A stretch of 64,000 nucleotides of DNA from Phototrophicus methaneseepsis. Its GTDB lineage: Bacteria > Chloroflexota > Anaerolineae > Aggregatilineales > Phototrophicaceae. The notes beneath the pieces were generated by a model. It was not told the origin of the DNA. It was given only the letters and a program-made list of their open reading frames with translations, and ran no database searches. Positions 36,872 through 40,499 of this stretch are shown here, one piece after another. Within the stretch, counting starts at the first letter, position 1. Each line of letters begins with the position of its first letter. Location: positions 2,046,001 through 2,110,000 of the forward strand of contig NZ_CP062983.1 in NCBI RefSeq assembly GCF_015500095.1. The letters run 5' to 3'. The translations under genes were made by a program, and so were the position numbers.

Positions 36872-38620
36872 ATGGCGGACCCAAAAATCACCACGCAGTC
36901 GCGTATGATCCGTGATTTGCAAAAATGCCAGTTGCTCGTAGCTCAGATCACAGATTCGCTAAAGAACCAGAAAGCGATCTTGAAACAGCGCGGTATGAAC
37001 CTGCCGCCAATGGTTTTGAGCTCATTGGATTCTATTCATACAGATCTGGCAAATTTGGCGGATCGCTTTGTGGATGAACAGAGCGAGCTGCGCCAATTGC
37101 GTGCCCTGGCAGATATGTCTGCGCAGATTAACACGGAATTGGATGTGGATACGGTGTTGCAGCGGACGATGGATGTGGTGATTACACTGACGCGTGCTGA
37201 GCGGGGCTATCTCATCTTGTTAAACAAAGAGACGCGCCAGCTCGTCTTCCGTATCATGCGCGAAGAAGTGCTCGTCGGCCAGACGCCGCCCGGCGCCACG
37301 CCAGAGGTCAGTACCAGCATCATCCGCGATGTGATTACCTCGCGCGAGCCTTTGCTGGCAGATAATGCTTATCAGGATGATCGCCTCAAGGGTAATAATA
37401 GTATTGCCAATTTGTCGCTGCGCTCGGTGCTGTGCGTGCCTTTGTTGTATCGGGATGACATCCTGGGTGTGGTATACGTCGATAACCGTATGCAGTCCGG
37501 CTTGTTTACACAGCGCGAACTCAATACATTGATGGCTTTCGCCAATACGGCGGCTGTCGCTATCTCGAATGCGCGCTTGTTCGAGCGCATCCAAACGCTG
37601 CTCCAGGAAATTACCCGTATGAAAGACTTGATGGATAGCGTTTTCGCTTCTATTGCCAGCGGCATTATCGCCACGAATCCAGATGACCTCATTACTACGC
37701 TCAATCGTGCTGCGGCTCACATTTTGGAGTTGCAGCCAGAAGACCACATCGGCCAGCCGTTGAGTACAGTGCTGCCGCGCATCACCGCCGATATTGATCA
37801 AGCCTTGGCTGCGAGCCGGGAAGGCGGCCTTGGGCAGCAAATTGATGGCGAGATTGAAACAGCCCGCGCAGGGCGGCGTGCATTGAACATCAAACTAAGC
37901 CCGCTGCGGGATGCCCAGAATATGACCCAGGGTGTGGCTGTGGTGCTGGATGATGTGACGGAAATCCGCGAGCAAGAGCAGCAAATCCGCATCACGAAAA
38001 CATATCTGCCCCCGCAGATGGTCGATAATATCCACGAGATCAGCGCTATTTCTCTGGGCGGTGAGCGCCGCGATGTCACCTGCCTATTTGTAGAAGCCCG
38101 TGCGTTCAACACCTTAAAAGATGTTCGCCCGCGCGATTTATTGGCAATCCTCAATCAATATCTGGGTGTGGCGACGGATTGCATCCATGAGGTGGGCGGC
38201 ATTGTCGATAAGTATATGGGTAATGAAATTATGGCGCTGTTTAATACGCGCCTGAACCCGTTAGAAGATCATGCGGCGCGTGCTTTGGCCTGTGCGCTCA
38301 ATATGCGCGATGCTTTCCTAAAGTTGTATGCGCAAGAGGGCATCGACCCACAACCGCACTTCTACCGGATTGGGATTCATAGTGGGGTGGCAACGCTCGG
38401 CAATGTAGGCAGCCCCAGCCGCCGCGATTTTACGGCCATTGGGGATACCATCAACACCGCCAAACGCCTGGAAGAAAACGCTGTGATGGGCCAGATTATC
38501 GTGAGTGATGCCACGCGCGAACGGTTATCATCTGATAACGGCTGGCAATTTATGGAACTTGGCACGATCCAGGTAAAGGGTCGCCAGCAGGGCATCCCAA
38601 CGTTTGAATTATCCAGGTGA
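36872..38620 (+). CDS. GAF-PAS-class III nucleotide cyclase, metal site lost (C2-like half)
   Basis: The 582-residue protein has a coiled start (ILKQRGMNLP), a GAF domain (about 80-235, with TRAERGYLILL), a PAS-like domain (about 245-370) and a class III cyclase domain (about 395-582). In the cyclase domain the first metal Asp is Glu408 (FVEARAFN) and the second is Asn451 (DKYMGNEIMA). The substrate Lys447, the Thr521 at the adenine-selecting position, Asn528 and Arg532 (DTINTAKRLE) are kept. By comparison with animal adenylyl cyclases this is the pattern of the C2 half. It should be inactive as a homodimer. The paralogue 77 bases downstream has the opposite losses. Confidence 0.88.
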   Translation: MADPKITTQSRMIRDLQKCQLLVAQITDSLKNQKAILKQRGMNLPPMVLSSLDSIHTDLANLADRFVDEQSELRQLRALADMSAQINTELDVDTVLQRTMDVVITLTRAERGYLILLNKETRQLVFRIMREEVLVGQTPPGATPEVSTSIIRDVITSREPLLADNAYQDDRLKGNNSIANLSLRSVLCVPLLYRDDILGVVYVDNRMQSGLFTQRELNTLMAFANTAAVAISNARLFERIQTLLQEITRMKDLMDSVFASIASGIIATNPDDLITTLNRAAAHILELQPEDHIGQPLSTVLPRITADIDQALAASREGGLGQQIDGEIETARAGRRALNIKLSPLRDAQNMTQGVAVVLDDVTEIREQEQQIRITKTYLPPQMVDNIHEISAISLGGERRDVTCLFVEARAFNTLKDVRPRDLLAILNQYLGVATDCIHEVGGIVDKYMGNEIMALFNTRLNPLEDHAARALACALNMRDAFLKLYAQEGIDPQPHFYRIGIHSGVATLGNVGSPSRRDFTAIGDTINTAKRLEENAVMGQIIVSDATRERLSSDNGWQFMELGTIQVKGRQQGIPTFELSR

Positions 38621-38696
38621 CGAGGTCGATAATCGCTTTCTGCCTGAGGCTGATACATAACCCGATTAAATTGCAAGATTCAGGGGCTTAGTTTTT

Positions 38697-40499
38697 ATGG
38701 ATGAGGTACCTGCCCAGAATAGTAAGCCGGAAGTTTTGCGCGTCATCACGCAAAAGATTGATGATGTGACGCAGCTTTTACGGACCCAGCGCGATTTACT
38801 GCGCCAGCGTGGCATGAATTTGCCATCTGGCTCGCTGGATAACCTGCGCACGCTCAAAGGCCAGATTGATGAGCTGAGCCGCACCATGATTGATAACCTC
38901 GTAGAACTGCGCTCACTGCGGGCATTGGCAGAGACGAGCGCCCTGGTCAATTCATCCCTCAGCACAGAAGACGTGTTGAATCAGGTGATGGATACCGTCA
39001 TCGCGCTGACGCGTGCGGAACGCGGTTACATTGCTTTGCGCAACAAACACACTGGTGATCTGGAGTTCCGGATTGCGCGCGGCATGGATCAGGCACAATT
39101 GGATAACAGCAAAGGCTTGATCGTCAGCAAGACCATCGTCAATGACGTGGCACAATCCGGCGAGGCGATTCTGACGGATAACGCCAGCGCAGATAAGCGC
39201 TATAACGCCAGCGAGAGCATTGCTGGGTATAACCTGCGTAGTATTGTGGCTGTCCCGCTCAAGGTGCGCGATGAAGTGATTGGCGTGGCTTATTGTGACA
39301 ACCGCTTCATGCCGGGGGTCTTCAGGGCGCAGGAGATGGACGTCCTCACCGCTTTTGCAAATCAGGCGGCTGTCGCCATTGAAAATGCGCAATTGTTCGA
39401 AGCATCGCGCATCCGCCTGGGCGAAGTCACGGAAATTCGGGACCGGATGCGTAACCTATTTACTTCTATTGCCAACGGCGTCATCACCGTGGATAAAGAA
39501 AACCGCGTGTTGATCGTCAACACGGCCATGCATCATATCCTGGGCGTATCCGGCGATGTCGCGCTGGCAGGTGAAAACCTGGACGATGTATTGCCGCTGA
39601 TGCCGGAGCACTTTACAGAGCGGCTGTTACAGGTCCATGAAGAAGGCTCTCAGCATCGCATCGAATTGACAGTGACGATGCCCAACACGGGTATACGTCA
39701 TTGGACGGTCGCCCTCAGTCCATTACGTGATGAAGGCAACCCGAACGCGGGTGTCACTATCGTCGTCAGTGATATGACTGAGCAGAAGATGCTCACGTCG
39801 CAGCTTGCAGAGGTTAAGCTGTTCCTGCCTTCGGCCTTGTTTGAGCACTTCCGCGATGCCAGTACGATTGATATGCAAGGCCAGGAGCGCGAAATTACGG
39901 CGATGTTCGCAGATGTGCGCGGCTTCACCACCTTCAGCGAGAATCTGGAACCGGAAGATTTAATGCGCGTGATCAATAAATATCTTTCGCTTGCCAGTGA
40001 TGCAATTGGCCTCTTCGAAGGCATTACCGATAAATACCTTGGCGATGCCGTCACAGGTTTGTGGAATACGCAGTTTAACCCGCAGGAAGACCATGTGGTC
40101 CGTGCTGTGAGCGCTGCCCTGCAACTGCGGCTCGATCTGATGGCGCAGCATGAAGTCCTGCCAGAGGATGAGCGCCTATTTTACGGCATTGGCGTCCACA
40201 CGGGCCCGGCTGTGATCGGCAATGTGGGGTCACAGGATCGCAAAGAGTTAGCCGCCCTGGGCGAAGCCCACGATATCGCCAAATATCTACAGGAACAGGC
40301 CGGGGAAGGCGAAATTATCATCAGTCAGGCCGTCTACGATGAAGTCGAAGACGTCTTTGAATGCGCGCCTGTCGAAGCACGCCGCCCCAAGCCCGGTTAT
40401 GAAGATGTTGCCATGTATCGCGTCGTCAAACGTAAAAAAGCGACAGGCTCCCTTTTTATTGATGATGAACTGCGCGATTTGTTGGGCGACATCAGCTAG
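38697..40499 (+). CDS. GAF-PAS-class III nucleotide cyclase, transition-state residues lost (C1-like half)
   Basis: The 600-residue protein matches its upstream neighbour domain by domain: coiled start (LLRQRGMNLP), GAF (TRAERGYIALR), PAS-like part and cyclase domain. Here both metal aspartates are present, Asp406 (FADVRGFT) and Asp450 (YLGDAVTG), and also Lys446. The adenine and transition-state region is replaced: ELAALGEAHDIAKYLQE has Ala519, Asp526 and Tyr530 where Thr, Asn and Arg are expected. It is therefore a C1-like half. It could make one complete active site with the upstream protein and should be inactive alone. A 30-residue extension follows the domain. A strong terminator closes the pair. 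Confidence 0.88.
   Translation: MDEVPAQNSKPEVLRVITQKIDDVTQLLRTQRDLLRQRGMNLPSGSLDNLRTLKGQIDELSRTMIDNLVELRSLRALAETSALVNSSLSTEDVLNQVMDTVIALTRAERGYIALRNKHTGDLEFRIARGMDQAQLDNSKGLIVSKTIVNDVAQSGEAILTDNASADKRYNASESIAGYNLRSIVAVPLKVRDEVIGVAYCDNRFMPGVFRAQEMDVLTAFANQAAVAIENAQLFEASRIRLGEVTEIRDRMRNLFTSIANGVITVDKENRVLIVNTAMHHILGVSGDVALAGENLDDVLPLMPEHFTERLLQVHEEGSQHRIELTVTMPNTGIRHWTVALSPLRDEGNPNAGVTIVVSDMTEQKMLTSQLAEVKLFLPSALFEHFRDASTIDMQGQEREITAMFADVRGFTTFSENLEPEDLMRVINKYLSLASDAIGLFEGITDKYLGDAVTGLWNTQFNPQEDHVVRAVSAALQLRLDLMAQHEVLPEDERLFYGIGVHTGPAVIGNVGSQDRKELAALGEAHDIAKYLQEQAGEGEIIISQAVYDEVEDVFECAPVEARRPKPGYEDVAMYRVVKRKKATGSLFIDDELRDLLGDIS

Follow-up and report, generated by a model that had tools for sequence, protein, structure and literature searches.

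Class III nucleotide cyclases assemble each active site from two chains, one of which supplies both metal-binding Asp residues while the other supplies the base-binding residues, an Asn, and an Arg. According to the excerpts of the cited articles on which we draw here and below, bacterial class III adenylyl cyclases (ACs) require homodimerization, and the mammalian enzymes are concatenated pseudo-heterodimers (PMC4821796). Mammalian AC has one site built from two unlike domains, C1 and C2, each of which supplies the residues that the other is missing, plus a non-functional mirror site (PMC2576301, PMC8815786). In soluble guanylyl cyclase (sGC), the metal Asp residues, D486 and D530, are on the alpha subunit, and N548, R552, and K593 are on beta (PMC3591389). 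In Rv1625c, the D300A and R376A mutants are each inactive and become active when paired (PMC4821796). Here we compare with these systems two adjacent cyclase genes, called UP and DOWN for their upstream and downstream positions, from a 64,000-nucleotide stretch of the Phototrophicus methaneseepsis genome (contig NZ_CP062983.1, positions 2,046,001 to 2,110,000), referred to as the window. The initial annotation of this stretch had read them as a probable obligate heterodimer. Sequence and evolution together give good support to this reading, and UP and DOWN are very probably the subunits of an obligate heterodimeric class III AC with one working site.

Active-site residues of UP and DOWN

Six sites were read in the order first metal Asp, Lys, second metal Asp, Thr, Asn, and Arg. 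UP has E K N T N R at these sites, and DOWN has D K D A D Y, with K446 as its Lys. CyaC and CyaB have D K D T N R, complete in one chain. The site roles were taken from an eight-position scheme for sGC and AC (PMC3591389) and from knowledge of the family, and the mapping onto the alignment is our own. The residues named in the initial annotation were all correct for both proteins and line up with the positions of the canonical sites in CyaC and CyaB. Its statement that both cyclases have GAF and PAS sensors also holds, since GAF, PAS, and Guanylate_cyc all exceed the Pfam cut-off in UP and in DOWN. The genes, domains, and residues are listed below, with counts that refer to the 71 pairs described in the next section.

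36872 to 38620, + strand: UP gene, 582 amino acids (aa); helical N-terminus, GAF, PAS, class III cyclase domain
37139 to 37564, + strand: UP GAF domain, aa 90-231 (Pfam GAF_2/GAF)
37631 to 37969, + strand: UP PAS domain, aa 254-366 (Pfam PAS/PAS_4)
38069 to 38590, + strand: UP cyclase domain, aa 400-573 (PF00211, E 4e-18); model matches CyaB 3r5g_A, Z 26.0
38093 to 38095, + strand: UP E408, first metal Asp position, lost here; Asp in 36/71 UP
38210 to 38212, + strand: UP K447, adenine-specifying Lys; 71/71 UP
38222 to 38224, + strand: UP N451, second metal Asp position; Asp lost in 71/71 UP (N, T, S, E, H, or G instead)
38432 to 38467, + strand: UP T521, N528, and R532, adenine position, transition-state Asn, and Arg; T/S, N, and R each in 71/71 UP
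38576 to 38578, + strand: UP K569, triphosphate Lys of the VKG motif; K or R in 71/71 UP
38697 to 40499, + strand: DOWN gene, 600 aa; helical N-terminus, GAF, PAS, class III cyclase domain
38964 to 39380, + strand: DOWN GAF domain, aa 90-228 (Pfam)
39444 to 39779, + strand: DOWN PAS domain, aa 250-361 (Pfam)
39885 to 40367, + strand: DOWN cyclase domain, aa 397-557 (PF00211, E 6.9e-14); model matches CyaB 3r5g_A, Z 27.1
39912 to 39914, + strand: DOWN D406, first metal Asp; 71/71 DOWN
40044 to 40046, + strand: DOWN D450, second metal Asp; 71/71 DOWN
40251 to 40286, + strand: DOWN A519, D526, and Y530, adenine, Asn, and Arg positions; Arg in 0/71 and Asn in 10/71 DOWN

The role of K569 was assigned by analogy with K593 of sGC beta and K1065 of AC (PMC3591389). 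Taken together, the two sets of residues make UP C2-like (sGC beta-like) and DOWN C1-like (sGC alpha-like). The Glu and Cys that specify guanine in sGC are not present in UP, which has K447 (Lys in all 71 UP) and T521 (Thr or Ser in all 71). This Lys and Thr suggest that ATP, rather than GTP, would be the substrate.

Paired losses across relatives

The sample of 71 pairs consists of the window pair, 30 pairs from the first 41 relatives, and 40 pairs hand-picked from an order-wide match list. It covers 71 of the 136 matching genomes outside the sister family, f2, and pairs were not chosen by active-site residue. Five loci were excluded because a contig end truncates one of the genes; the sites that can be read in them fit the pattern. 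One locus (L041, G035:C23:258500-266000), in which UP and DOWN are both broken by frameshifts that are possibly assembly errors, was counted because its cyclase domains are readable. For comparison, 42 single-copy homologs were read, seven from f2 and 35 from elsewhere in the class.

The second metal Asp is absent from every UP (N 38, T 20, S 10, E 1, H 1, G 1), while the Lys, Thr/Ser, Asn, Arg, and VKG Lys/Arg are each found in 71/71. Every DOWN has both metal Asp and none has the Arg (L 30, Y 14, F 13, K 5, I 4, Q 2, W 2, S 1); Asn is retained in 10 of the 71 and Thr in 30. No chain has a complete residue set (UP 0/71, DOWN 0/71), as a homodimeric cyclase would. The full set of two metal Asp, Lys, Thr/Asp, Asn, and Arg at one dimer site occurs only as the composite of UP and DOWN, and exactly one such site is complete in 71/71 pairs, with an intact mirror site in 0/71. 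This is an arrangement of the C1/C2 type, with the Asp residues on one chain, the adenine, Asn, and Arg residues on the other, and the second site degenerate. The single-copy homologs have D, K, D, T/S, and N in 42/42 and Arg in 41, the remaining row being cut off before the Arg. The seven f2 copies read are all intact, as are the 35 others from the class apart from that one cut-off row.

A second set of named loci, with 80 UP and 77 DOWN, gave zero exceptions. The peptide patterns behind this set specified N, T, or S in place of the second Asp, which biases it toward such UP; the 71 pairs are free of this bias. The union of both sets comprises 102 distinct pairs, and the pattern is present in 102/102. 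Since it recurs in 71/71 pairs that were unselected by active-site residue, the pattern is more than chance. A sequencing or annotation artifact was also considered and is ruled out by this recurrence.

Origin of the pair

Two trees were built. The quick tree has 164 proteins, with 10 of the 71 pairs left out as near-copies or frameshifted, and the careful tree has 74 (25 pairs, all 7 f2 rows, and 17 of the 35 class rows). In both trees, UP, DOWN, the f2 singles, and the class singles each fall on one side of a branch. When rooted on the class singles, the quick and careful trees agree on (class,(f2,(UP,DOWN))). Supports in the 74-protein tree are 100/100 for UP plus DOWN, 100/99 for UP, and 100/97 for DOWN. 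Family f2 has one copy in 9/9 genomes.

On the simplest history that fits the gene tree, one tandem duplication would have occurred after f2 split off and before f1 and f3-f8 diverged; the position of f2 is that of a gene tree, not of a species tree. On the same history, the complementary loss would have been fixed before f1 and f3-f8 radiated. We infer that the ancestor was an intact gene whose product, judged by its sequence, would have been homodimeric. The bacterial C1/C2-like split appears to have arisen separately from the animal one. The initial annotation had claimed that UP is C2-like and DOWN C1-like, with one composite site, and had raised conservation of the paired losses in relatives as one point to check, with unpaired losses as a refutation. 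No unpaired case was seen among the 71 pairs, and the split itself is upheld by these losses, by the intact single-copy genes of f2, and by the one duplication on the tree.

Constraint, fold, and points against the division

For each of 183 aligned columns, conservation in UP was compared with that in DOWN, and the columns were ordered by the difference, with none chosen beforehand. N528 and R532 are the top two of the 183 columns that are conserved in UP and variable in DOWN. When only the 41 columns that are conserved among the singles are considered, the DOWN-conserved list is led by E415, F410, E420, L494, D450, G409, and D406, which are the two metal Asp, three positions soon after the first Asp, and two others. 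This ranking, with N528 and R532 on one side and the metal Asp region on the other, suggests that relaxation has fallen largely, though not only, on the half-site that each chain would no longer use. Independent decay of the two paralogs was another candidate, and the constraint profile and the exceptionless complementarity argue against it.

The same data bear on the idea that both proteins are pseudoenzymes, with cyclase domains that act only as dimerizing scaffolds for GAF/PAS signaling. The lack of a full residue set in either chain would agree with this. Free decay, however, would not keep complementary halves, and in 71/71 pairs each chain holds the half-site that the other is without. 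The constraint on UP is strongest on exactly those half-site residues, and the genomes contain proteins that bind cyclic nucleotide monophosphates (cNMP). It is thus very improbable that both chains are catalytically dead.

Predicted models of both proteins were compared with solved class III cyclases using VIA-align, and CyaB 3r5g_A was the best match for each. The root-mean-square deviation was 1.9 over 183 for UP and 1.7 over 187 for DOWN. In sequence searches, sGC beta-1 chains are among the hits of UP (E 8.5e-5 to 5.3e-4); DOWN has none of them at E 0.001. With Foldseek, UP finds sGC beta chains at ranks 10, 16, 21, 22, and 25 and the first alpha chain at rank 30, while DOWN finds sGC alpha chains at ranks 14, 16, 23, 27, 28, 29, 31, and 34 and the first beta chain at rank 37. 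We took chain A to be alpha in the sGC entries and C1 in 1azs and 1cjk. On the C1/C2 assignment, the fold comparison would be soft evidence either way.

Several observations fit a clean division between UP and DOWN poorly and count against the proposed heterodimer. Loss of the first metal Asp is not universal in UP, where the residue remains in 36/71. DOWN retains the Lys in 61/71, with Gln in the other 10, and a Lys or Arg at the VKG position in 56/71. Over all 183 columns, T521 ranks only 15th in the UP-conserved direction. The DOWN-conserved direction is headed by E557 and E415, with D450 only 11th and D406 only 13th. For UP as well as DOWN, the chain of 1cjk and 1azs that VIA-align places first is C1, and alpha and beta chains are intermixed in its sGC results. 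The AlphaFold2 (AF2) predicted template modeling score (pTM) is 0.42-0.43 for both models, which leaves the domain arrangement unsure. Finally, position 4 of the scheme, the C1-side Arg in our mapping, lies off the C1/C2 split, as it is Gly in 70/71 DOWN and Arg in 54/71 UP. Position 4 was compared with R574 of sGC alpha and is presumably R484 of AC, and the metal-binding chain therefore does not carry this C1-side Arg.

The single-copy homologs have Gly at position 4 in 42/42. In the window, this position is UP aa 499 (38366-38368), which would sit beside the dead mirror site, and its Arg may be the marker of a new role there.

The residues retained in DOWN could also mean that DOWN alone catalyzes, without the canonical Arg and Asn, and that UP is a dead regulatory partner that brings no residues to the site. 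Both metal Asp are present in 71/71 DOWN and the Lys in 61/71, and some Thr (30/71) and Asn (10/71) remain. Against this, UP holds K, T/S, N, and R in 71/71 while its own metal site decays, and a purely regulatory UP would not need transition-state residues. The Lys has been replaced by Gln in 10 DOWN and is present in every UP. Furthermore, the R376A mutant of Rv1625c is inactive (PMC4821796, excerpt). Catalysis by DOWN alone is very improbable on this evidence. If DOWN no longer binds the base, as the heterodimer would have it, Gln in place of Lys is to be expected. The DOWN proteins with Gln (L057, L080, L082-L088, and L090) all belong to genus g17, from which 12 pairs were read; the other two, L075 and L089, retain Lys.

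Distribution, linkage, and other cyclases

Aggregatilineales is an order within Anaerolineae, and the pair is found across most of its searched members. At E 1e-70, UP finds a match in 145 of 154 genomes of the order; the number of matches is exactly two in 128 genomes, three in one, and one in 16. The 16 single-match genomes are nine from f2 (every f2 member searched) and seven with the gene or pair cut by a contig end (G018, G020, G054, G078, G088, G138, and G140). In G020, G078, G138, and G140, part of the partner can be found on that contig or a different one; G018, G054, and G088 show no such piece. Genomes that retain only one partner were looked for among these 16, and all of them are accounted for as f2 singles or contig-end cuts. 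Nine of the 154 genomes have no UP match at E 1e-70 (G021, G046, G057, G100, G002, G011, G019, G101, and G102). When the first four were rescanned, nothing beyond weaker, partial matches came up.

Wider draws, with three candidates scored per genome, gave single matches outside the order. In the class-wide draw of 396 genomes, DOWN has matches at E 1e-75 in 131. Of these, 96 lie outside the order, with one match each, and 35 inside it. Phylum-wide, 66 of 400 genomes match, and 64 of these are outside the order with one match each. The 80 named loci are labeled Anaerolineae, Anaerolineales, Anaerolineaceae, Chloroflexi, Chloroflexota, Aggregatilineales (three), Ardenticatenia (two), and Thermoflexus (one), and nearly all are metagenome-assembled genomes.

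UP comes before DOWN on the same strand in 71/71 pairs. The spacing between them is -4 in 24/70 and -1 in 17/70, which are stop-start overlaps of 4 bases and 1 base, as in translational coupling. Spacing was measured from the ATG nearest the UP stop, a method that leans to short distances. Among the gene families that neighbor the pair in 27 loci, none is shared by more than 5 of the loci, so the pair stays together while its surroundings turn over. For the same reason, linkage merely by conserved gene order was ruled out.

UP and DOWN might instead pair with other, intact cyclases and not with each other. The window genome does contain two more PF00211 domains; L001 has all six residues, and L002 is without the Lys and Thr. 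In genus g17, however, UP and DOWN are the only PF00211 domains in 7/7 genomes searched, and no other partner of this type is available there. The tandem linkage, with UP first in all 71 pairs and frequent stop-start overlap, also speaks for pairing of UP with DOWN, and there is next to no chance that their partners lie elsewhere. Each of the same seven g17 genomes has one to three cNMP-binding domains. The window genome has six, two of which are followed by a Crp-type helix-turn-helix over the cut-off.

Another genome of the order, G028, has one frame with two class III cyclase domains (L245:3-1868, - strand). With residues read by eye, the first domain has the metal Asp and apparently no Asn or Arg, and the second has Thr, Asn, and Arg and no Asp. 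A P-loop-like stretch follows, and the protein looks like a one-chain complementary cyclase whose layout recalls what we take to be that of animal soluble AC. Heteromeric class III sites in bacteria may thus not be confined to the UP/DOWN pair. One-chain bacterial heteromeric forms may already be known.

Domains and locus

UP and DOWN are two separate open reading frames on one strand, each with one PF00211 domain, and not one two-domain chain. The PF00211 scores are 66.1 bits for UP and 52.3 bits for DOWN against a Pfam cut-off of 21.9. In the predicted models, both proteins have a linker helix between PAS and the cyclase domain. The Pfam scan, which places GAF and PAS ahead of the cyclase domain, found no H-NOX heme domain in UP or DOWN. 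It also found no Pfam membrane domain, with no membrane predictor run. In the NCBIfam scan, TIGR00229 sensory_box exceeds the cut-off in both proteins, the other resemblances are general ones to GAF/PAS and cyclases, and no equivalog is over the cut-off. DOWN has a C-terminal extension at aa 580-600 (40434-40496) with a predicted short helix at aa 590-597; UP is without this extension.

The window genome is a single contig of 5.63 Mb. In the window, UP and DOWN are 40% identical over their matched part and are separated by 76 bp. On the opposite strand, a gene for a PucR-type regulator lies on one side of the pair and one for an inositol monophosphatase on the other. Two promoter-like sites were found by a promoter scan (4.4 expected), and nine terminator-like sites by a terminator scan (3.9 expected).

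Proposed mechanism

In the proposed heterodimer, the cyclase domains of UP and DOWN would pair head to tail. At the working site, both metal ions would be held by D406 and D450 of DOWN. UP would contribute K447 and T521 for adenine recognition, N528 and R532 for the transition state, and K569 as the triphosphate Lys. The mirror-image site would be dead, since UP has lost a metal Asp and DOWN has lost the Arg and usually the Asn. Acting through the linker helix, the GAF and PAS domains of each subunit would set the orientation of the pair, so that cyclic AMP output would depend on both. The presence of GAF and PAS in both chains suggests that the enzyme would integrate two input signals.

A more extended scenario can be drawn, although we hold it only tentatively and think it more doubtful than probable. 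The C1/C2 division would have been reinvented once by tandem duplication, in one order of Chloroflexota whose sister family keeps the intact single-gene form. The product would be a two-input gate, and the dead mirror site would have become a small-molecule regulatory pocket, like the animal forskolin site.

Comparison with known systems

The pair is a natural bacterial case in which labor appears to be obligately divided between two separate genes, and its origin can be located on a tree. The intact f2 enzyme can be set against the UP/DOWN pair as a symmetrical enzyme against two dependent halves, with dozens of natural loss variants. In the open-access literature available in part to us, a coverage that does not extend to subscription literature, we found no bacterial class III cyclase assembled from the products of two genes that have lost complementary residues.

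CyaB of P. aeruginosa, CyaC of S. platensis, and Cya2 have the same cyclase fold as the UP and DOWN models. CyaB and CyaC have the complete residue set in one chain, in contrast to UP and DOWN, which are each incomplete. The pair resembles the D300A and R376A mutants of Rv1625c in that, by position in our mapping, the second Asp is lost in UP and the Arg in DOWN. Those are laboratory mutants of one homodimer, whereas UP and DOWN are natural, conserved, and fixed in two paralogs. The NeoR/RGC rhodopsin-cyclases of the chytrid R. globosum are an obligate heterodimer of two sensor-cyclases encoded by separate genes, as UP and DOWN would be.

As in mammalian transmembrane AC, the metal Asp are on the C1-like chain, DOWN, and the adenine and transition-state residues are on the C2-like chain, UP. 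The mammalian enzyme has two domains in one chain, while UP and DOWN are two bacterial genes with GAF and PAS that come from a separate duplication inside one bacterial order. Like sGC alpha and beta, they are two separate genes, with the metal Asp on one and the Asn, Arg, and Lys on the other. Unlike sGC, they are bacterial, have GAF and PAS without H-NOX in the Pfam scan, and have Lys and Thr instead of Glu and Cys. If the heterodimer is real, UP and DOWN would form a two-component cyclase with two sensor inputs, one that works like C1/C2 and sGC alpha/beta and that originated separately on two bacterial genes.

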